From: Monosiga brevicollis MX1
Lineage: Eukaryota; Opisthokonta; Choanoflagellata; Craspedida; Salpingoecidae
Reading direction: 5' to 3'
Assembly: GCF_000002865.3 (NCBI RefSeq)
Contig: NW_001865040.1
Span: 494,905-558,904, forward strand
Length of the DNA stretch: 64,000 nucleotides
Of this stretch, positions 15,886 to 30,305 are shown piece after piece. Both the position numbers and the translations under genes were made by a program. Position 1 is the first letter of the stretch. Every line of letters begins with the position of its first letter. The notes beneath the pieces are model-generated. The model searched no databases and was not told the DNA's origin. It was given only the letters and a program-made list of their open reading frames with translations.

Positions 15886-18800
15886 GACAGGCAAGCGTGC
15901 GACCAGCGCCAAGCTCACACACGCAAAAACAACCAAACTTGCATGCACCGTCAACAATCGGCGTGCGCAGATGCACGGCGTGCGATGGCGTCGCCGAATA
16001 TCAAAATCAACCCCAGCAGACAGCGTGTAAACCAACGCACAACTGCTCGTACGGGGTGGCTGAATTTCTGCCGCCCACACCGACCACGGATCGCATCTGT
16101 ACCAACTGCGATGGCATTGATACCTATTATGAGGACTACGGCTTGCCCCACTGCGTCAACACCACGACCTGCCTGCCAGGTTCTTTTGAAAATGTCGCCC
16201 CAACCATTAGCACAGATCGTCAGGTGTGTGTTGCCATTTTTAGTTGTGAGATCTTGTCCATAGTCGTGCAGCTCACCCATTAACAATTGTTTCCTTGTTC
16301 CCCCATCTGTAGTGCTTGGCATGTGATGTCGGATCCTTCAGCAGCAAATTCAACGCGAAGAGTTGCTTGCCCTGGACAACATGTGTTGCGGGCAGTGCCA
16401 TTGCTTCCAACGGCTCGTCAAGCACGGACCGGCTATGTGTGCCGTGCGAAGCTGGTACCTATCAGAATGCCACCAACCAGCCAACATGCCTTCCCACAAC
16501 GCCATGCAGGCCCGGTACAGAGACCGTTCGGCCCGCTGCAGCCAGCCACGACGAGCTCTGCCGTCCGTGCCAACTGGGTGAAGCCTTCAGCAACGCCACT
16601 GGCTACAACATCGCGTGCCAACTCGTGAGCCCGACTTGCCCGCCCGGTACGTCCATGACCCATGAGCCCACTCTGTTTAGTGATCGCGAGTGCACGGTAG
16701 GTCAAGGTGCTGCGTGCCCCTGCAACACCATGGCGTGCTTGCACTCTGTGCTTTGCACCTGCTGGGCGAGTCCACGACTGAAATGACCTGATCCAGCTTG
16801 GCTTACGCTTTTGCAACAATGTGTGTAGACATGCCTGCCCGGTACCTTCAGCCCTACTGCCGGCTTGGAGCCCTGTCGTCAGCTGTCTTCCGTGAGTCCA
16901 CAAAAAACGTGCTGCAAAGCCTCCCCCCCCTTTTTTTTTTTTTCGAATTTTAGCCAAGCATGCTCGAGTCGTTGCTGCACTATCCCCTATCCTTTGCAAT
17001 TCACACACACCAACCACCGCGCGTCCGACTGATAGTGTGCCGCAGGTCAATTCATACTCAGCAACGGGACCAGCACAACAGATCGCACGTGTGCCAGTTG
17101 TGCCGCAGGACACTTTTCTAGTGAACTCAACTCGCTCGCCTGTCAGCCGTGGCAATCATGCACACCTGAGCAATTCCAGCTCGTTCCCGGTACCGCATTG
17201 TCCGACGTCGTGTGCCGCTCCATCTCGACCTGTGCTGCGGATCAATTTGAGCAAGCCGCAGCTTCGCCCACTACGGACCGCCTCTGTGCCAATTGCACCA
17301 TTTGCTCCAGCCATTCTCATTACCAAGTGGCTGCATGCACGGCCACCAGCGATGCCGAGTGCTATGGCTGTACTCCATGCCCGACGGGCTCATACTTCAC
17401 GGAGCCGTGTGGCGCCAATGTCCTAGAACCAGTCTGCGCGCCCTGCACCGTGTGCGAGGGTCACCAGTTTACCTCCACCACGTGTTCCTCGGCCCATGAC
17501 CGACAATGTCGGGACGTGACGCCCTGCACAGCCAAGCAATTTATGCTTGCTCCTGCTACGACATACAGCGACAATGTGTGCGCCAACCACACCATCTGCA
17601 CCCCATTGGAATTTGAGCAGGCGGCACCCACAGCCTCAACAGACCGGGCCTGCACACCAGTCAGCGCCCCCTGCCCATCGGGATTTTTTGAACAAACCCC
17701 GGCGACGGCTACTAGCGATCGCGTGTGCATTGCGTGCGGCCCAGGGACAGTGGATGCAGACGCCAACGCCACGACCCCGTGCGTCCCATGTGATCCGGGG
17801 ACGCATGTGCCCGCAGGTGTTGTAGGTTCCTGCAGCGCGTACGCTTGTCAGCCCGGCACCTTCGATGCGGACAACTCTTCTGCCACGCCTTGCGAACGCT
17901 GTCCCACTGGATACTTCAGCTCTGAAGCTGGAGCTCTCTCGTGTGAACCATGGAGTGTGTGTCCCGGGGGAAGTGCAGTCATTGCTGGCACCGGCTCGAA
18001 TGTATCAAACGTTGCTTGCGAGGCTTGCGCAGCCGATCACTTTGGAGATGGAGAACGGTGCCGAATTATTGGTGACTGTCCACCTGGTATGTTTGTGATG
18101 ACGCCACCCACGCGATCAACGGATCGTGTCTGTGCCGCCTGCCCTGCGTCAACACAAAGTGCGACCATGAACGCGCCCAACTGTATGGCACATGTGTTGT
18201 GTGACGCCGGCGAGTACGCATTGACTCAGCCGACAAGCTCTAGCGATGCCTACTGCCTGCTCTGCCCCATCTATGAGTTTGCCGACGAGCCGTCGTTGGA
18301 TTCCTCCTGCACGCGTGCCACCATCTGTGAGCCAGGTTACGAGGTCGCCGCATGGCCCACACGGACTAGGTAGGCTTGATGCGTGCGTGCCTTGCCGGTT
18401 GTCAGCCTGTTCAGGAAGTGTGCAAACAAGGTGTCGGTGCGCTGCTTGATGCTCATGCGGATTGGCTAATTTGCATCGCTGGATTCTCTTACCTGTGTGC
18501 GCGCACTCTGTTGGGTTCTGTGTCTAGTGATACCGTGTGCGAGGCATGCGTTCAGGGCGCCTCATATACGGACACGCACAACAGCGAAAACTGCCTGCCG
18601 CTGACTGATTGCCCAGCAGGCACAATGCAGAGTGGGGCACTGAAGACCACAGCCAATCGCAATTGCGTGAGCTGCCAAGTGGGCGTTACGTTCAAGGACA
18701 AGGCCGGTGCCGGCATTTGCATGCCGATCTCAAACTGCCCCGTGGGTCAGCACGAGACAGCCGCTGCCACGTCCTCAACCGATCGTCAATGCCAGCCATG

Positions 18801-21253
18801 CCCGACTGGTAGTTTCAAACCAGAGGTAGGCCAGGGGCAGTGCCAACTAGCCAAGGCCAGCTGCGAGCCCGATGAATATTCAGCTTCACCCCCAACCATC
18901 TCAACGTACGTTCAAGGAGGCGCTGCCTCATCTCATGGCACCGCTTGTTGTGCTTTCCGACCAGCTTGAAAATGCACGTTGGACCCTGGCTGACCATTCT
19001 ACGCATTGTATTTGACCTGATGCATAGGGATCGACAATGCCTGACGCTTACCGTGTGTGCAGCCGGCGAATGGCAAAGCACTGCGCCAGCAGCTGACCGA
19101 GACCGAGTGTGCCTGCCTTGCCAGACCACCTGCCCCTTCAACCACCGCTATCTAGGCCCGTGTGGCGCATACCACGACTTGCAGTAAGTTGCGCCACCAG
19201 CAGCGGCAACGCAACTGTAATTACTTCGACGACGCTTTTAAGCTGACAACAATGGGATGCCAACGCGCGACTCCTTCTTTGCAGGTGTGATGGGTGTCGC
19301 GTTTGTGCGCCTGGATCCTTTGCGCAGCAGGAGTGCGATGACCACCACAATACCACTTGTGCACAATGTCTCGATTGCCAGGCAGCTGACGAATACGAGA
19401 CGGTGCCCTGCACTCTGTCCACAAACCGACAGTGTGCCAATCTTTCCGTGTGTGCAGACCACGAGTACGCGTGGCAGGAGGAAACGGCGACCACAGATCG
19501 CATCTGCCGCAACATGACCCAGTGTACAGCTGAACAGTTCGAGTTGATGGCACCGCTTCCCGACCAAGGCATTGACCGCATCTGCGCTGTGGTGCGCTCT
19601 CCGTGCGATGCTTCAGAATATGAGGACCGGGCGCCAACGGCTACATCTGATCGCAGCTGCACGATCTGTCCAGCCGGGACGGTGGGTCAAAATGGCATCA
19701 ACTGTACCGAGTGTGGCCCGGGATTGTACGTGCCAGCCGGTTCAACGGGACGATGCGAGTACTATCGTTGTCCCGTGGGTACCAAGGACCACGACGCAAG
19801 CGCTGCCACGCCCTGTGTTCCCTGCGCCAACGGAACAGAGTACCAGAATCTCTTTGGCCAAACGGCCTGTGAACAAGCCACACAGTGTGGGGCGGGTTAC
19901 CAGGCGCGTGCCAATTCGTATTCGTTTGCTTCGGATCGCCAGTGCGAGCGGTGCCCCGCAGGGACTTTCCGCACAGGAACCGAGACCAACTTGGATGCGC
20001 CGTGCAGGTCCTTTTCTCTGTGTGGGCTGGGTGAAGGTCTCTATCTACCAGGGTCCTCCGTTCGTGATTCCGACTGTCGATCCTGCTTCCCCAGCCACTA
20101 CAGCCCAAACATCAGTCTAGCACCGTGCATCAAGATCACAGACTGCCGACCGGGCTTTTACGACGTCAAGCCTGCGACGCCTACCAGCGATGCCGAGTGC
20201 ACGGCCTGTTTAGAGGGCACCTTCAAGTCGACGGCTGGAGCGGGCGTGTGCAAGGCGGTGCAGCAGTGTACAAGCCAGCAGTATGTTCTGGCCGACAGCA
20301 CCATCAGTTCAGATCGGGATTGCCAAACCTTTAAAACGTGCGGCGGCGACGAATATGAGGCGGCGGCGCCCACGCGCAGCAGTGATCGCGTGTGTCGGTC
20401 GAGCACGGAGCTTCATGTTACGCGGCTTTACGTGGCGCTGCCGTTTGAAGCCTTCTCAGCACCAGCAGCCCAGGATGCGCTAGCGAGCCACGTGTCCATG
20501 GCCGCTCGTGGGGAGCCTTGCCGCGTCGGCGGGTATCTACACGTGGACGTGGCGCAGACCATCATTGGTGAGTCACCCGAGCTCCTGCTGACGCTCAGAT
20601 CGACGGACGCACCAGGGATGCGCTGCGTGGAGCAGCGTCTTGAGGCGGAGGAGTTTGTGGTGGAGACTAGCCTGAGTGACAACACAACGGTGGCGGTTCT
20701 GGCCCAATCGTATAGTGAGGGTGCTGCAGAGGAGACGGCTTGGCTGGCCTTTTTAAGCGAGCTCCGACAGGGACACACGGTGGCGGCCGCGACGGCTTCA
20801 GCGGCCAAGGCATACTTTGGGGCTGGAGGACTACGCAACTGGTCGGCCGTCTGGGTGGCGCCTACCGTAACATACTCGAGCACGGGTTCGGCGTTGACAC
20901 CTTTGTTGCTTGTGATTCTGCTGTGTCTGGTCGTGGGTGGGACAAGTGCCCTTCTCATGTGGAGGGCGCATCGCTCTGCGCGCACATTTGAGCGTGACCA
21001 CGCCGAGCTGCTTGCCAACTGCCAATCAGATGCCGAAGCTGATGTGGATGCCAATGAACAGCGCTACAATAATCCTCTGTTCACTCGCCTGACTCACGCC
21101 TCTGAGGGCGCTGACATGCAGCTTGCCCCGGGGCGATTGTCCGAGGGTAACCTGTCACACCGCTCAGGGCGTTCATTGCATCGTGGCTCGGGTAACTATC
21201 AGCCGCCACAACCCGCCCCAGCCTGGGAAGAACCGTCGGCTCCGGATGCGTAA
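14177..21253 (+). CDS. Giant TNFR-like cysteine-rich single-pass membrane receptor
   Basis: Eleven exons close in one frame: 14177-14350, 14455-15331, 15435-15570, 15654-15779, 15971-16223, 16313-16696, 16829-16891, 17036-18369, 18528-18905, 19028-19183 and 19285-21253, giving about 1949 aa. An N-terminal hydrophobic signal peptide (SLLLILALFLLAKTSVA) leads into a cysteine-rich head, then more than 20 repeats of about 40 residues built on C-x2-C, PG-x-(F/Y/E) and S-T-D-R-x-C motifs (STDRLCVPC, TSDRVCIAC, TTDRICTNC). These resemble TNF-receptor CRDs or GCC2/GCC3 modules. A roughly 200-residue cysteine-poor domain follows, then one transmembrane helix (PLLLVILLCLVVGGTSALLMW) and a roughly 90-residue tail with NNPLF and a proline-rich end. 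The topology suggests a type I receptor or adhesion protein; the ligand is unknown. There is no death domain or kinase. Two introns contain CA/GT repeats. Confidence 0.88.
15381..15417. repeat. (CA)n microsatellite in an intron
   Basis: About 18 CA units between exons 2 and 3 of the TNFR-like gene. The repeat lies upstream of the tcctgtcag acceptor. Confidence 0.95.
15834..15884. repeat. (GT)n microsatellite in an intron
   Basis: Interrupted GT repeat (gtgtgtatgtgtgtatgtatg, then about 14 pure GT units) in the intron between exons 4 and 5 of the TNFR-like gene. Confidence 0.95.
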
Positions 21254-21468
21254 GCACATGGCCTTGCGCGGCGTCTGATGGCAAGAAGAGAGCCCCACGT
21301 GATGATGATGGCAGTGTGGTTGTTTGAAGAGATGACAAGCTTCTAATTGAAATTTTGTAAGCGAATGTGCTTGGCAACTGTGCTAGAGATGAGCGATGCA
21401 AGCCTGAAGGCTAGAGGTGTCAATTGGCTAGACAGGCGTGGGTCCAAGGGGGTGTTGCCAAGGGCGGT

Positions 21469-23016
21469 TTACTCCAAGTCGCGCACGTGGAGACGGTTCT
21501 CAGCCTGCAAGCGCTGAAAGTGCTCCGCCGTTTCGCGAATGGCATCGGGGAGAGGAGTCGGGAAGGCTCCGGTGAGACCATAAGGGGCAGGGACGCTGGC
21601 CAGCATGGTCTGCAAGCCCGTTTCGTCGACGTCAGCCATGATGGGGACTTCACGGCCATCGATTGTAATGAGCTTTTCAGCGGCTGGAAGGATTTGGCGA
21701 ACTGGATTTTCGACACGGCCAGTGGGATCATGAGTGGCATGATAACACAAGCCGAACAGCCAAATACGGCAAAGGAGCGCAGTGATGGCTTGCTAGCCAC
21801 ATGCTTGGAGCACCGGACGGCAGGGCGACGAACCGTAGTCGATGAATTCTTCGGCTGACGTGACTTCGCCTCGGATGTTAAACACGGGGGCACCGTCGGA
21901 GGTAGAGAAGGCCGCACCAATAAACGCTCGTGCGACGTCCTTGACATAGCTAAAGCCGGTCGTGCCAGTGACGCTGCACACATAGGGCTGACCCACGATG
22001 GTGGCCTTGATGGCCTATCAAGCACGCGAGAAAGAAGGGTAGAAGGACACCGGCCAGCTATGAGACTGGCTTGAGCACGTACACACGACGTGCATGCAAG
22101 GGTCGGGGAAGTGCGACGAACTTTGGTTGGTGCCGAGGTGAGGCCGATTTCACGGCCCACGCCGAAGCAAGTCAGAGGCCGCAGGCCGACGCTGGGGATT
22201 TTGTGGTCTTGCCAATAGAGGCGAGCGGAGCCCTCGTTGGCAAGCTTGAAGACGCCGTAGATGGTGGCAGGTTTGTGGTAGAAGTCGTCTGGCACGGGTG
22301 GGTTGGTGTAGTCAGCCTTGGGGCCCAGGACGGCGGCAGACGAGGCGTAGGCGATACGGATTGGGGACTGGCCAGTTTCGGCAGCGAGGAGGCGGACAGC
22401 CTCAAAGACATTGAGGGTACCGATGACATTGACTTGCGCTCCCAAAACCGGGTTGACCTTGCAGGTGGGGATCTGTAGGCCTGCCAGGTGAATGATGGCA
22501 GACGGCTTGCTGGCCAGAACTAGGGTCTTGAACTGCTCCGGATCGGCAATGTCACCTGTGCGTGATGCCGATCGAAAACAATGACTCAAGGTTGACGGAA
22601 AATTCGGGTCATGAAGACCGTGTGTGTGTGCGTGCGCGTGTGTTTGAGTAAAAGTCACTGACCATAGTGGCGCTCGAGGCCAGCAAACTGTTCCTCGCTC
22701 AGCACCTAGGTCAGTTGCGACACAAAGGTGAAGGCGCGCGCCGAGCGCGCAGGTGTGTTTGTCTGGCATAGAGGAATGGTACCTGGCGAAGAATGTCATC
22801 GCTTTGCCGCAGGTCAAAGATGATGGGATGAGCCCCAGCCTCGATGAGCTGCTTGACGATCCAAGCTCCAAGAAAGCCCTGCCCGCCAGTGACCAGCACC
22901 TTGTCTGCACGCGCGCACACACGCATCACCAAATTCCTGTCAATAAGCTGCGGCGCACAGAGCCATGATCCAGAGCACCAATTCGGTCGTACACACGCAC
23001 CTTGATTGGCCGCCAT
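21469..23016 (-). CDS. NAD-dependent sugar epimerase/dehydratase (extended SDR)
   Basis: Six exons: 23001-23016, 22783-22904, 22663-22705, 22122-22555, 21834-22014 and 21469-21701, about 342 aa. The Rossmann motif VTGGQGFLGAWIV (GxxGxxG) is near the N-terminus. IIHLAGLQIPTCK, YASSAAVLG (catalytic Ser region) and YGVFKLANE (the YxxxK catalytic pair) follow in the order of extended short-chain dehydrogenases; GLRPLTCFGVGREIGLTSAPTKA and GFSYVKDVARAFIGA resemble UDP-glucose 4-epimerase-family enzymes. The substrate cannot be told from sequence. The first coding exon is only 16 bases, and an in-frame upstream extension cannot be excluded. Two introns use GTTCGT donors, unusual against the GTAAG/GTGAG norm here. 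It is convergent with the TNFR-like gene, 215 bases apart. Confidence 0.88.
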
Positions 23017-23250
23017 CTTTGAGGTATCAATCCAGTTGAGCGCCTCCGTCGGGGTCTTTCAATAAAGGTCAATCAGAAATGCATCAGACGCAGCGCCAGC
23101 AGCGCCAGCAGCAGCACGATTCGACGATCCGGATCGAGACGGCGAAACAAGTCACCATACCCACTTTTTTCACCCAATTTATCTGACAAAAAGCCTTTCT
23201 GCTTTTGGAGAACGAACATGCGGTAGCGGCCACCGTTGTGTGCCTCACAC

Positions 23251-23251
<1 letters not shown>

Positions 23252-23287
<36 letters not shown>
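23252..23287. repeat. (CA)n microsatellite
   Basis: About 18 CA units in the divergent spacer upstream of the epimerase gene. Translation of this tract gives an artefactual Cys-Val or His-Thr repeat. Confidence 0.95.
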
Positions 23288-24124: not shown

Positions 24125-27100
24125 ATGGACAGCAAGGGCTCAGTGGCCCCTGCGGCCCCCGCAGTCGATGCCTCACAACACCCAGACAGTGCGTCTTGCG
24201 CCGTCTCTCGTGACCTGCTTCAATCTCCTCCGTGACGCTGCACCCCGACTTCTTGCTACTCTTCTCTCTCATCCCCTCGCTTTTGAATGGCTCGGCCCCA
24301 AACTCACGGGGCTGTTGCAGATTTTCACGTCGAGTTTTCCCGTAACATCTTCTATGTCTCCTCCATGGAGCTCCAAGAGGGCGAGTCAATTCACATCATT
24401 CATCAGGGCATCGCCGACGTTGCAAACGCCTCCGCTGCTAGGTTCGACCATGCATTGGATAGTCTGATCCAGTGCCCCAGTCCATGTACAACTCACCGGC
24501 CTTGTGTGGACTCCCGGGACATCAGCTTTGTGCCCAAGGCCCAACACATTCCCGTGAAGCTCGAAGTCAACCTCAAATCAGTGGTCACGCGAAGGGCAGG
24601 CACGGCCGAAGTAGGTTCATCCAAGCGGTCGTGTCCAAGCAAGCGCCAAAAAAAGCCCGCAGGGCCCAGCCTCACACCGTATTGCTTGCTTGTTTGTTAG
24701 ATGTTGTACACCACCCCTTTATCGACCATTGCCGTAGCAGCTTTTGGCAACACACCCCGCACAGCCGCTCTGTTTGGTTACATTGCCGACAACCTGCGCG
24801 ATGGCCTTCCCATGGGCTATGCTCTCCACGTTTATCGAACTGACTCAGAAACCACTGCCTCCACCATTGTTGAGGTTTGTGTGCAAGAGTTTTTCCGCGA
24901 ACGCGGTTGTTAGCCTCTTTGAAATGGCGGCGCTCTTTTGTAATTTTGACAGCCCATTTGCCGCCGCGTTACTTCACCATATGTTTTGGATGCTGCCCGC
25001 ACAGATGCTTGGCCGAGCTTTTTCGGGCGCGCAACGCCACGCCCAAGAGGCAAGATCCTTGCAAAGCTACAACAGCCACGATAGTGGTCTCTATAGCACG
25101 AGTCAAGGAAGTCACCAGCCTCCTATACCCGAGGGGGGTGTGGACCTGACCAAGGCCCAGCCCTCCAGAGGCGATGGCACCTCAGCCCCTCCAAAAACCG
25201 TCCAACCAGTCTCCAGAGCATCGTCTGCACCCCCCGGGCACCGGCGCACTGTCAGCGATGGAGGTAACTATGCGCCTCAGCCGGCAGGACCTTCCATCAA
25301 TACCAACTATCTGATGGAGCAGACGGTACAAAACATCTATCGTCGGCTTCACGCCCAAACACCTTGCCTTGTGAGCGACCACACGGCTGCCAGTGGCCGC
25401 AATGAGCCCCTTACTTTTATCGGGAATGAAGTCATCACCTGGCTTGTGGCCCAGCGCGACTTTCACAGCCGCCATGAGGCCGTCGAGTTTATGACCACCC
25501 TTCTCGTGCTGCGACTCATTTTCAATGTTGACGACGAAGGTGACGAGTTTAATGACTCCAACAGCCTCTATCGCTTTTCCTTGGACCAAGGGCGCAGTGC
25601 TGAGGCACCTCGCGCCCGCAGCGCAACGCTAGGCGCTCAGCATTCAGCTTCACAGTCACGATCCGATGACGCCAGCGCAGGCGCTGGAGCGCCAACGCAG
25701 ACACTTGGCCTCAATTCCCTCAAAAACACCGCTCATAAGGCCGCCACCTTAAGTGCTTCTGCGGGCGATGTCCGGCTAGATGAAGACGATTTTGAGGCCG
25801 GTCTGGGCCTACCAGGAGCAACACCGCCACTCGAGTCCGTCTTGGCCCATGGTGAGTCTGCGGAGGCTTTTGCGCTGGTCCATACGCCACTTGAGGAATT
25901 GCAGGCGCGGCTCGAGGGCGGCGGTGACGGGGCCTTGTTGGATCACCTTCCAGTCAAGGTTCGTGCACGCCTCTTGGCTCAATGCTTGCACAACAGCGAC
26001 CTGCCCCGAGCTCGTCTTTTGCTGCACCATGAGCCCGGCGGCATCTTTGAGGCCGCCCTCAACAGTGGTGGCGATGTTCTGCTCCACTGGGCTGCCCGGG
26101 CCAATCTGCGACACATTGTCATGTTTCTTTTGGAGCACGGCGCTGATTTGGAACACGTCAACGATCAACAACAGACCCCCTTGCACAAGGCCGCCGCGCG
26201 CAGCGAGTGCTTGGAGACATCCATGGTCCTGGTTCAATATGGCGCACGAATTCGTGTTGTCAACGCGCAGGGCAAGCGGCCCATCGATGATCGCCCAGAA
26301 CTGGTTGAGGCACAAGCCGTGTTCTGCCGTTCTGTGATTGAGGACGTGGCCAACCACACAAACGTCGTTGACGCCTTGCAAGCCCTCATCCGCCTCAGTC
26401 AAAACCGGGAAATTCAGGCCACCTTGTGCGAGCTCGTTCCGAGCGTCGCCGACGACTTGGCGGTTTCATGTCGAGGCAACGATCGAGCACAAGAGCTGCT
26501 GATGACCTTCCTTGATCACGTCATGACGGACCAAAGCAGCTCCAATTGCGACCCTGATGTGCTAGCGTGCGTCCTGGCCCTGACACGTATCCCAGGCGCC
26601 AGTCGACGTCACGCTCTGGCCGCCCTCAACGGCCTGGTAGGCACTCAGGATCCCGTGGACTGTGTGGCTGCACTGGCCCGTTGTGATCTCAATCCCCTGG
26701 TTGAGATTGTTATGGCGGCCGATTCGGATAACGGAGCCATGGACATGGAACACCTCGGCCTGTCCGCCCGGTTGCTCTGCTTTGTTACAATGCTTCCCAA
26801 GTGTCGCAAAACACTCTCGAGCAGCAGCTTCGTGGACGTCCTGAGCCACATTCTCAGCCATCGCTACATGGCTGAGGTTTCCGGCGAGCCGTCGGCCGCA
26901 GGCCCAAACCACGAGCTCTTGCTGGCCCACATCCTGACTCTAGTGGGCAACCTCTGTGCGGTCCTCTCCAAGCAAGCCATGTATCGAGGACTCGGGGTGG
27001 ATGACATTCTGCGCCAGCTGTTGCATCACACAAGCCGCCGCTTGCGACGCCTTGCTGCCCGTGCCTTGGTCATTCTCGGAGAAACAGATGTGTCGGGCGT

Positions 27101-30100
27101 CGATGTGTTTGACGAAAGCATCGAGGCACTCGATCTACGTGCAGGTGATCCATCAACCTTGACCTCCAACACCGAGTGGGGGCACACGGAAGTGATTGAG
27201 GATTCAACCCACGCACTACAAACCTACGTTGGGCCGCATTCTCGGCTGGCCCACACCGAGTACTGGCGACGCTTTTTGGGTATGAATTTGGAGCGGTTCC
27301 TGCTGGCGCTGACGGATCCACGCCAAACATCGGTGTGGGAACTGGCATTCATCTTCATCGCTGATTATTGGCCGCCGCTCGTTGTACTGCGTCTGCTGCT
27401 CCACCGATTTCGCTCCATTCCTGCCGCCCATGACCCAGGGGTGCTGGACCCGGAGCACCGCCAACTCTTCATTGTAATTGGGGCCTGGCTGCAGACCAGC
27501 CCTGAACATTTTCGCTCGGACACGGACATGTTGCGTGCAATGCAAGCGTGGCTTCAAGAGGCTCGCTCCCGCGGCCCGGTCTACGTGGAGGCGTGCCATT
27601 CTCTCGAGACGGCCGAGCTCAGCCCTCGCACGGATGAGCTCCTGAGCGGACAACTCAACTATCAATCCGCAGCTCATCAGGCCATGTATCGCCGTGCACA
27701 CCAAGCCGTCCTCAAGGGTGAATTGCCACTATCCGACCAGACAGCCGTGGCATTGGCGGCGGCCTACATACACATCGAGGATTTGGCTCGCCGCCAGCCC
27801 GGGGCACTGGTCATTGAGCCCCGCGGCGGTATCCCTTCTTACAAGATGAAGCAGGTGCTGCCGCCAAACTTTGCACGTGGTCGTGATGTCAAACAGCTAG
27901 CCGAAGAAATTCGCCGCGCGTACGATGCCATTGCGAAGCGCAACGAGCGGGATACCATGCACTTCTACTTGTACAAGTATCATCTTGAGGCGCAGTCCGA
28001 GTGCGAGTTTTTCCCCGTGCGGGTGGTGCCCGAGCAGGCACCGCGCACCCGCTTGCCGCGCCTGCTGGGCATATCTCCCAAGCGCATCGTACTCACCTTG
28101 GAGAAGACTCGCCAGGTCGAGGCCAAGTACCCGCTTCAGGCACTGCAGCGCTGGCACATTCAGAAAGTCCGCGATCGCTTTCCTCGCCAGGACCGACCCA
28201 AGGCCTCTCTGCGCCACCGCCCCGAGCGCCATGCCCTGTGCCTACAGTTTGGGCGTGGTGAACTGGTTGTGTTGGCCGATGATACCACCATCACTGCGAT
28301 CACCGATCTTCTGTGGCAAGTCACAGCTCTCGGGGCCCGAGGTGGCTCTGAGCCCAATGCCGACGTGAGTACGACGAGCACGTCCAGCCATGGGCAACAA
28401 GCTGGCGGTGTCGGTGCCTCCACTGCCGCGGTCACGGGCTCCATTGGCCCGGGGGCAAATTCCGGCTTCTCCTCCGTAACGACATCGGCCTCAGCTACGG
28501 CGCCCACAAGCCCAGCGCTGGTGCTGCCTGGGCGTCACAACGCGGCTAGCGATGACAGCATGCTGGGAGGCACCGGCTTGAGTGCCACCCGAGGATCCAA
28601 TCTCACGAGCGGTTTGCGCTCTCGGGCCAGCACTGCTCCCCAGCAGCAGTTGTCCAGCTTGCGCGAGAGCTCATCCCATGGTGACACTAGTGGTGGACGC
28701 GGCGGCGGCAATGGTGCAGGCCAAGCTGGTGGGGCGCTTGGCGCCTCGACGCTTGATGTTGACGCTCGGACTTCCATGTTTGGTTTTGACGACATGGACG
28801 ATGACTTTGACTTGAACATTTTTGCACCTGCTGAGGTTGAGGCTACACTCTCTGAGCCGCTCGACGACGATAACAACGGATCAGAGGGGGGTGGCTTTGC
28901 CCTCGGGAATGTGCGCCCGCGCTCCAACACACACACTACAGCCACATCCCCGGCAGCCAGCGGTCAGGCTTCGGGCACCGTCACACCCCGTGCCGTCACT
29001 CCTCCAGGGGCCCCGGACTCATCCCCCGCCGGCAGCGGAGCGGCGAGCCTCGGGGCCACTCGACCCACCACGCCCAACTTCACCTCGATCCCCAACACCG
29101 CGGGCCCGGTGAGTGCCGGCCGCAGCGGGACTGTTGGAGCGCCGTCGCCGTCCACGGCGTGTACCACGGTGGTGCCCAGCGTAGCCGGCACCGCTGCCCC
29201 GACGGCGCCGCCCTCTCCGATTTCGGTGCGTCCTCCAGCATCAGCATGGCAGGCCAATCCTCCGCCGGCCGTGGCCAGCTCCAGTGATGTGGCTGCCACT
29301 GAAGCGTCGGGCAGCAAGACGTCAGCCGAGTCAAACGCAACGACGTTTACCAACTGTGATCGCCGCTTCAAGCCGTACATGCTGGTGTCGCGTGGTGTGG
29401 TGATCTGTGATTGCCCGGCGTCTCCAGCGCTGCCCGCAGCCTTGATGCAGCGTTCAGTCACGCCCCTCGACTGCACGCCCCATCCGCTCGAGCTCGCACG
29501 TCAACTGACATTGTATGAGCATGACTTATTCAAACGAGTTCGCGCTCTAGACTTGGTGCACAAGGTCAAATCGGGCGAAGCCGCGACGGTGGCATCGGTG
29601 TCCGCCATGATTCGCCACTTCAACGCCATGACCAGTTTTGTGGCCGCCTGTGTTCTGCAGGAGACGGATCGCGAGCGCCGCGTGGCTTTGGTGCAGAAGA
29701 TGATTGCCTTGGGCCATCGCTGCTACACCTTGGGCAACCTGAATGGGGCCATGGAGGTGGTTGCCGGGCTAGGCCTGACGCCTGTTCGTCGCCTCACGGA
29801 GACCTGGGCCGGCGTGGACCCAGCTGCGCGAAAGGCCTTTACGGGGCTGGAGCGTCTGATGAGTGCCGAACGCAACTTCCATCGCTACCGCGCCCTTTTG
29901 CGCAAGCTGCGACCACCCATGGTGCCGTACTTTGGGCTCTATCTCCGTGATCTGACCATGACATTGCACAGCAATCAGGACACGCTGCGGTGCGGCATGC
30001 TCAATACGGGCAAGTTGCGAGACCTGAGTGTCTTGTTGGAGGATATGGAGGCGCGGCAACAGGGCAGCTACCCATTGATTGTGTTGCCCAATGTACGTGC

Positions 30101-30305
30101 CATGCTGCAGGGCCTGGCCCCAGTGGACGAGGATGTGCTTTTTGAGCGGTCCTACGCGGTGCAGCCGCCTTCCCACCTACGCAAGGCGTCATCGACATCA
30201 TTCTTCGGCTTTCGCCTCACCGGAGACAGCGATTCCAATTCCTCCAACAGCCTGCGCGGGCGGCGTGCGAGCCGCCATCGCACTCTCAGCACCAATGTCA
30301 AGTGA
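24125..30305 (+). CDS. Multidomain Ras-family GEF: PTB-DEP-ankyrin-RasGEF_N-FERM-RasGEF
   Basis: Four exons: 24125-24188, 24321-24610, 24701-24874 and 25005-30305, about 1942 aa. Residues about 30-185 look like a PTB/PID domain (FHVEFSRNIFYVSSMEL... STIAVAAFGNTPRTAALFGYI... ALHVYRTDS). A DEP domain lies at about 277-372 (FIGNEVITWLVAQRDFHSRH) and two ankyrin-like repeats at about 530-605 (LLHWAARANLRHIVMFLLEHG; TPLHKAAARS). A helical ARM/HEAT-like region, a RasGEF_N module (about 905-1040) and a FERM-like M and C lobe (about 1065-1290; LGISPKRIVLTLEK) follow. A 330-residue Ser/Gly/Pro-rich linker leads to a CDC25-type RasGEF catalytic domain (about 1660-1900; NFHRYRALLRKL, VPYFGLYLRDLT). It presumably activates a Ras/Rap GTPase at membranes. 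The huge last exon is intronless. RasGEF is certain; PTB and FERM are strong inferences. Confidence 0.9.

Follow-up and report, generated by a model that had tools for sequence, protein, structure and literature searches.

The window analyzed here, 64,000 nucleotides of the choanoflagellate Monosiga brevicollis MX1 (contig NW_001865040.1), carries on its forward strand a gene whose predicted product joins a PTB domain, a DEP domain, ankyrin repeats, talin-like lobes of a FERM domain (F2 and F3) and a C-terminal CDC25/RasGEF catalytic domain in a single polypeptide (Table 1). Read from its sequence, the gene probably specifies a Ras-activating guanine nucleotide exchange factor (GEF) which two separate folds of the phosphotyrosine-binding type would recruit to receptor or adhesion tails. 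An initial annotation of the locus had placed PTB, DEP, ankyrin, solenoid, RasGEF_N, FERM and CDC25 parts in one protein; the open frame and the RasGEF, DEP, ankyrin, PTB and FERM F2 domains are shown by the sequence and by Pfam, while RasGEF_N, F3 and a HEAT_2 match stay under their cut-offs.

The body of the gene is an open reading frame (ORF) of 1855 codons (24738-30305, forward strand), and a four-exon splice model yields a single 1942-residue protein without internal stop; the three introns, of 132, 90 and 130 bases, are all of the GT..AG type. Exons 2 to 4 are tied together by the Pfam PID (PTB) match, which starts in exon 2 at residue 95-96, runs on through exon 3 and reaches into exon 4, thus crossing introns 2 and 3. 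This continuity is a stronger argument for exon joining than codon preference, which, trained on the long exon 4, is for each of exons 1, 2 and 3 positive in no frame but that of the model (0.22, 0.17 and 0.47, respectively), the other frames being negative. The codon test is itself weak: a frame of intron 3 reaches 0.29, above exon 2, a frame of intron 1 reaches 0.03, and exon 4 itself gives no more than 0.02 over its first 300 bases. Coordinates and gene are confirmed as a model. Across the genome profiled (39.47 Mb in 57 contigs), no second copy was found among the 13 candidates scored, and the 1120-residue body of the protein (from residue 177, with CDC25 left out) hit, besides itself, two other places, over the ankyrin part only.

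Table 1. Features of the GEF gene and its upstream neighborhood; positions are those of the window and residues those of the 1942-residue model.
Feature	Position	Strand	Residues	Remarks
TNFR-repeat ORF, distal	17036-18373	+		
TNFR-repeat ORF, proximal	19247-21253	+		
NPLF motif (NPxY/F-type)	21071..21082	+		in tail of the proximal TNFR-repeat ORF, ~3 kb upstream; candidate docking partner, outside the GEF gene
NAD-dependent epimerase-like ORF	21423-22925	-		
CA repeat	23246-23287			
Exon 1	24125..24188	+	1-21 plus one base	start Met; GCGATGG context; donor GTGCGT
Exon 2	24321..24610	+	to 118	PTB first part; acceptor TTGCAG, donor GTAGGT
PTB/PID, Pfam-supported part	24542..25031	+	96-185	split by introns 2 and 3
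Exon 3	24701..24874	+	119-176	central PTB strands; acceptor TGTTAG, donor GTTTGT
Exon 4	25005..30305	+		PTB helix end (Phe182), remaining domains, stop; acceptor GCACAG
DEP	25407..25577	+	311-367	PF00610, E 6.3e-11, over cut-off in full protein
Ankyrin repeats, 2-3 units	25998..26258	+	508-594	PF00023 2.7e-8, PF12796 3.5e-8, full protein
Possible HEAT/ARM-like solenoid	26301..27103	+	~609-875	
RasGEF_N (REM)-like, tentative	27279..27542	+	~935-1022	PF00618
FERM F2 (FERM_M)	27663..27974	+	~1063-1166	
FERM F3 (talin-like, IRS/PTB-type)	28047..28334	+	~1191-1286	Arg1225-Trp1226; insert after RWHI
F3 insert	28161-28229	+	1229-1251	rich in basic residues
Low-complexity linker	28344..29336	+	~1290-1620	27% Ser/Thr, 15% Ala, 13% Gly
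CDC25/RasGEF	29490..30020	+	1672-1848	E 2.5e-48, profile 1-181/181

The catalytic domain is matched over the whole length of its profile, and its relatives among solved structures suggest a substrate. Compared with the 28 PDB sequences that reach E 0.001 or better, a set from which PDZ-GEF, C3G and RasGEF1 are absent, the domain scores highest against SOS1, 2ije, SOS2 and yeast Cdc25 (102-109 bits), with a best E of 2.9e-30 for SOS1 and a range of 2.9e-30 to 1.8e-29 for the group of SOS1, SOS2 and 2ije. Lower scores are obtained for Epac2 (81-82 bits), RalGPS1 (75), RasGRP4/1/2 (62-70) and RGL2 (61). The entry 2ije is listed as a guanine nucleotide-releasing protein, which we take to be RasGRF1. 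Since the domain is nearer to SOS than to Epac2 among solved structures, its similarity makes Ras a likelier substrate than Rap. Within the same genome, comparison with seven loci gave L001 (30% identity) and L003 (26%) as the closest, with a shorter match at L004 (40% over 88 residues).

The DEP domain and the two ankyrin-like repeats noted in the initial annotation are, like the RasGEF domain, over the Pfam cut-off in the full protein, and the ankyrin segment scanned alone improves to E 3e-10 for PF00023. The region that follows the ankyrin repeats may be a solenoid; as an isolated segment it gives a HEAT_2 match covering 29 residues (E 0.0011, 19.6 bits versus a cut-off of 27.7, and thus below it). 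The linker ahead of the catalytic domain contains no Pfam domain over cut-off.

The PTB-like start of the protein is likewise borne out. PID is over its cut-off when the segment is scanned alone (E 2e-5, 25.1 bits versus 20.9), and a profile built from 11 PTB rows of the same genome scores 19.8 bits, a value reached by none of 20,000 shuffles, the best of which scored 13.2. A FERM F2-F3 profile made in the same way from six rows scores 27.8 bits, and the best of its own 20,000 shuffles 9.8; in sliding windows of 200 residues, each of the two profiles peaks only at its own expected place. The N-terminal half of the PTB domain (residues 22-94) has no Pfam support, positions 1-48 of the PID profile remaining unmatched. 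The Phe of the PTB helix is kept in the alignment at residue 182.

Of the FERM-like lobes that had been read from the peptide, F2 is found by Pfam and an F3 of the talin type is supported under cut-off. FERM_M matches residues 1066-1166, scanned alone, at E 3e-6 (28.0 bits versus a cut-off of 23.8), and is over cut-off in a six-frame search of the genome as well (28 bits). The F3 lobe is seen as an IRS match, at E 1.9e-4 (21.8 bits) in the full-length protein and 17.2 bits in exon 4 alone. A whole FERM domain was considered and rejected, since F1 is not seen and F2 follows the REM-like match after ~40 residues, too few to hold it.

On sequence comparison, the two lobes appear nearest to talin. 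Among the six FERM rows of the same genome, pairwise blastp gives E 1e-6 (24.5% over 151 residues) for L015, read by eye as a talin on the basis of its own sequence and of its likeness to PDB talins, followed by L013 (7.5e-4), L018 (0.002) and the remaining three at 0.011 or weaker. A search of the PDB up to E 10 returned 22 rows, 21 of them named talin or integrin-talin fusion, and the remaining one, MKIAA1027, is presumably also talin. The top match is talin-2; the best E is only 0.02, over ~50 residues, so that PDB support for the talin likeness is consistent but weak. The Arg-Trp pair at residues 1225-1226 aligns with that of talin, and L015 alone among the six FERM rows also has it; in talin this pair presumably contacts integrin NPxY tails. 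The basic F3 insert, which follows the Arg-Trp strand, is absent by eye from L015, and it may serve in membrane contact or alter the tail-binding groove.

The REM-like stretch upstream of F2 is suggestive of RasGEF_N. This is the sole family reported for its segment, and the match covers positions 4-103 of a 106-position profile. The score of a REM profile built from the same genome was reached by 1 of 2000 shuffles in a smaller set; elsewhere in the protein, windows over residues 551-800 score 8.3 and 8.6 bits with it, and residues 700-880 alone score -0.9. A phmmer search of this region against the PDB returned no chain up to E 10. Residues 883-1289 (407 residues) were also modeled by single-sequence AlphaFold with a mean predicted local distance difference test (pLDDT) score of 37.7, and the REM-like stretch is mostly helix in this model and has its best local confidence (block means of 53-76 over residues ~963-1042). 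The FERM part stays below 50, and the model speaks neither for nor against the FERM fold.

Taken together, these domains suggest how the protein might work. The N-terminal PTB domain and the internal talin-like F2-F3 lobes would attach to acidic membrane and to NPxY/F tails, the DEP domain and the ankyrin/solenoid-like stretch would add a membrane contact or hold the enzyme off, stabilizing or restraining it, and the CDC25 domain, probably propped by the REM module, would load GTP onto a Ras-family protein. The initial annotation had proposed that receptor or integrin-like tails are coupled directly to Ras or Rap activation. From the architecture, we infer recruitment to tails, autoinhibitory control by DEP and ankyrin, a REM module and Ras rather than Rap as the substrate. 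The integrin part of the proposal is not supported: no match to the integrin beta family PF00362 was found at E 1 in the 39.5 Mb genome, in a search whose control genomes were also without a match.

Several results weigh against an exchange factor recruited in this way. In the full-length scan, PID (E 6.2e-4, 20.3 bits versus 20.9) and FERM_M (E 1.5e-4, 22.5 versus 23.8) both fall just below their cut-offs, and the F3 IRS match is under its cut-off of 22 in every scan (21.8, 19.1, 21.1 and 17.2 bits, depending on query length) and covers positions 12-50 of 92, roughly the first half of its profile. No F1 family was returned by a Pfam scan of the full protein up to E 10. A phmmer search with the PTB region against the PDB gave five rows, none of them a PTB protein (best E 0.061), so that the case for this domain rests on Pfam and the own-genome profile; PTB folds, moreover, also bind lipids or other peptides. 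The RasGEF_N match is not significant (E 0.035, 14.8 bits versus a cut-off of 28.3), and the own-genome REM profile is not specific, its score of 7.7 bits being reached by 18 of 20,000 shuffles. Single-sequence AlphaFold gave no usable model of residues 883-1289. Finally, the positions of SOS L938 and E942, which presumably enter the nucleotide site, align here with Thr and His, so that exchange activity is not assured.

Among the alternative explanations, the best placed is that the protein reflects ordinary, lineage-specific domain shuffling without wider meaning for adhesion or animal origins, a reading that we slightly favor. A PTB-like match also occurs on the C-terminal side of another RasGEF frame of this genome (L003), and PTB domains placed, by eye, before kinase-like sequence are present as well. 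Unusual combinations are also frequent among the tyrosine kinases of M. brevicollis, many of which are described as having combinations absent from any multicellular organism (PMC3082566).

Two further explanations, both on the unlikely side, concern what the protein binds. The FERM-like and PTB-like lobes could be real folds that act as lipid or GTPase binders, or that serve, like RA in Epac, as spacers with an inhibitory effect, and not as readers of tails. The position between REM and CDC25 is that of the Epac RA domain, and both the absence of a visible F1 and the insert after the Arg-Trp strand would suit such a role; against it, the talin Arg-Trp pair and the PTB helix Phe, which we take to be tail-contact residues in relatives, are kept, and this explanation is given a minor share. 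It is also rather unlikely that the protein is a Rap exchange factor of the Epac, PDZ-GEF or C3G type. An upstream DEP domain and a domain between REM and CDC25 do recall Epac, but SOS, 2ije and Cdc25 lead Epac2 by 20 bits or more in the comparison described above (in which PDZ-GEF and C3G lie outside the 28 PDB rows), and the Pfam list contains no cyclic-nucleotide or RA family.

It is very improbable that exons 1-3, with the PTB domain, belong to a short transcript of their own and that the GEF begins inside exon 4 as a DEP-ankyrin-REM-FERM-CDC25 protein. In favor of this reading, the frame of exon 4 stays open over the 89 codons ahead of its acceptor, and not every predicted N-terminal PTB exon is used: for a Monosiga kinase, longer forms that include the first and the second of its three PTB domains appear not to be expressed (PMC3082566). 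Against it, the PTB match is continuous through both introns, its last helix lies in the first part of exon 4, and codon scores favor the model frames, if weakly.

For an exchange factor recruited to tails, the neighborhood of the gene offers a candidate partner. The two TNFR-repeat ORFs upstream lie on the same strand (TNFR_c6 at 1.6e-37 and 5.4e-18) and are probably one receptor gene. In the proximal ORF, the strongest hydrophobic stretch, transmembrane-like with a mean of 2.7 over 19 residues, is followed by a 96-residue tail with an NPLF motif. This motif was sought after the fact and only in the two TNFR-repeat ORFs, and NPx[YF] occurs in 2.1% of 100,000 shuffles of the tail. The NPLF-tailed neighbor is a testable lead, since in a eukaryote adjacency says nothing about interaction. 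It is separated from the GEF gene by the NAD-dependent epimerase-like ORF, which is head to head with the GEF gene and ~1.2 kb from its start; the CA repeat lies between these two.

Other loci of the genome carry related domains. L003 (G000:C39:142099-144171, minus strand) is a 986-codon frame in which RasGEF_N and CDC25 are accompanied by a PTB-like match toward the C terminus, the latter at 24.6 bits in one search and 20.4 versus a cut-off of 20.9 in another; by eye, the end of the frame looks like the beginning of an SH2 domain, and SH2 is not reported there by Pfam. L006 and L007 (G000:C55:44113 and 37904) have very similar RasGEF regions ~6 kb apart and are possibly a recent tandem duplication. 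In this pair, just upstream of the REM match, copy L023 has in-frame stops where copy L021 is open. At L028, L030, L032 and L034, PTB domains are followed by what looks, by eye, like the glycine loop of a tyrosine kinase (GAGQFG), and these loci resemble HMTK-type genes. The HMTK kinases of M. brevicollis are described as having PTB domains in 10 of 15 cases (PMC3082566).

Set beside known systems, the protein resembles several in part. In Epac, DEP, REM, an inserted domain and CDC25 follow one another. The predicted protein is like Epac (RAPGEF3/4) in having an upstream DEP domain, a REM stretch (here tentative) and an inserted domain before CDC25, but differs from it in that the 12 Pfam families reported up to E 10 include no cyclic-nucleotide or RA family, in the presence of PTB, ankyrin and F2-F3, and in a CDC25 domain nearer to SOS than to Epac2. 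SOS1/SOS2 and the presumed RasGRF1 (2ije) supply the closest CDC25 domains among solved structures, yet the Pfam list is without any DH, PH or histone-fold family. The talin head provides the closest FERM lobes, including an LLGI...EKT stretch and the Arg-Trp pair, but here F0/F1 are not seen, there is no rod and the lobes are embedded in a GEF. KRIT1 combines ankyrin repeats with FERM, and kindlins bind tails through FERM F3, neither having an exchange domain. L003, from the same genome, is alike in that a single open frame combines RasGEF_N and CDC25 with a PTB-like match, but its PTB-like part is C-terminal and no FERM, DEP or ankyrin is reported in that frame.

No description of a protein combining PTB, DEP, ankyrin, FERM lobes and CDC25 was found in the open-licence literature searched, and a Dictyostelium review is not about this protein (PMC9197732). 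Each of the domains is known; the combination appears to be new, in a genome with other shuffled signaling proteins.

In animals, the receptor-to-Ras task is split among Shc, Grb2 and SOS, or among talin plus Rap GEFs. An improbable but more far-reaching possibility is that the choanoflagellate protein is a single-protein bridge from receptor to Ras, in which PTB and F3 would read NPxY/F tails, such as the NPLF of the neighbor, and the same molecule would load Ras, as a pre-animal or an independent solution. If tail binding and Ras exchange both hold true, this would be a one-molecule receptor-to-Ras route outside animals, without the animal adaptor chain, and the GEF and its NPLF-tailed neighbor would be a concrete pair for testing how tail-to-GTPase coupling is built. 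Even if the architecture is a shuffle private to this lineage, it would be an instance of FERM lobes of the talin type that occur in a protein other than talin and are linked to an exchange factor.

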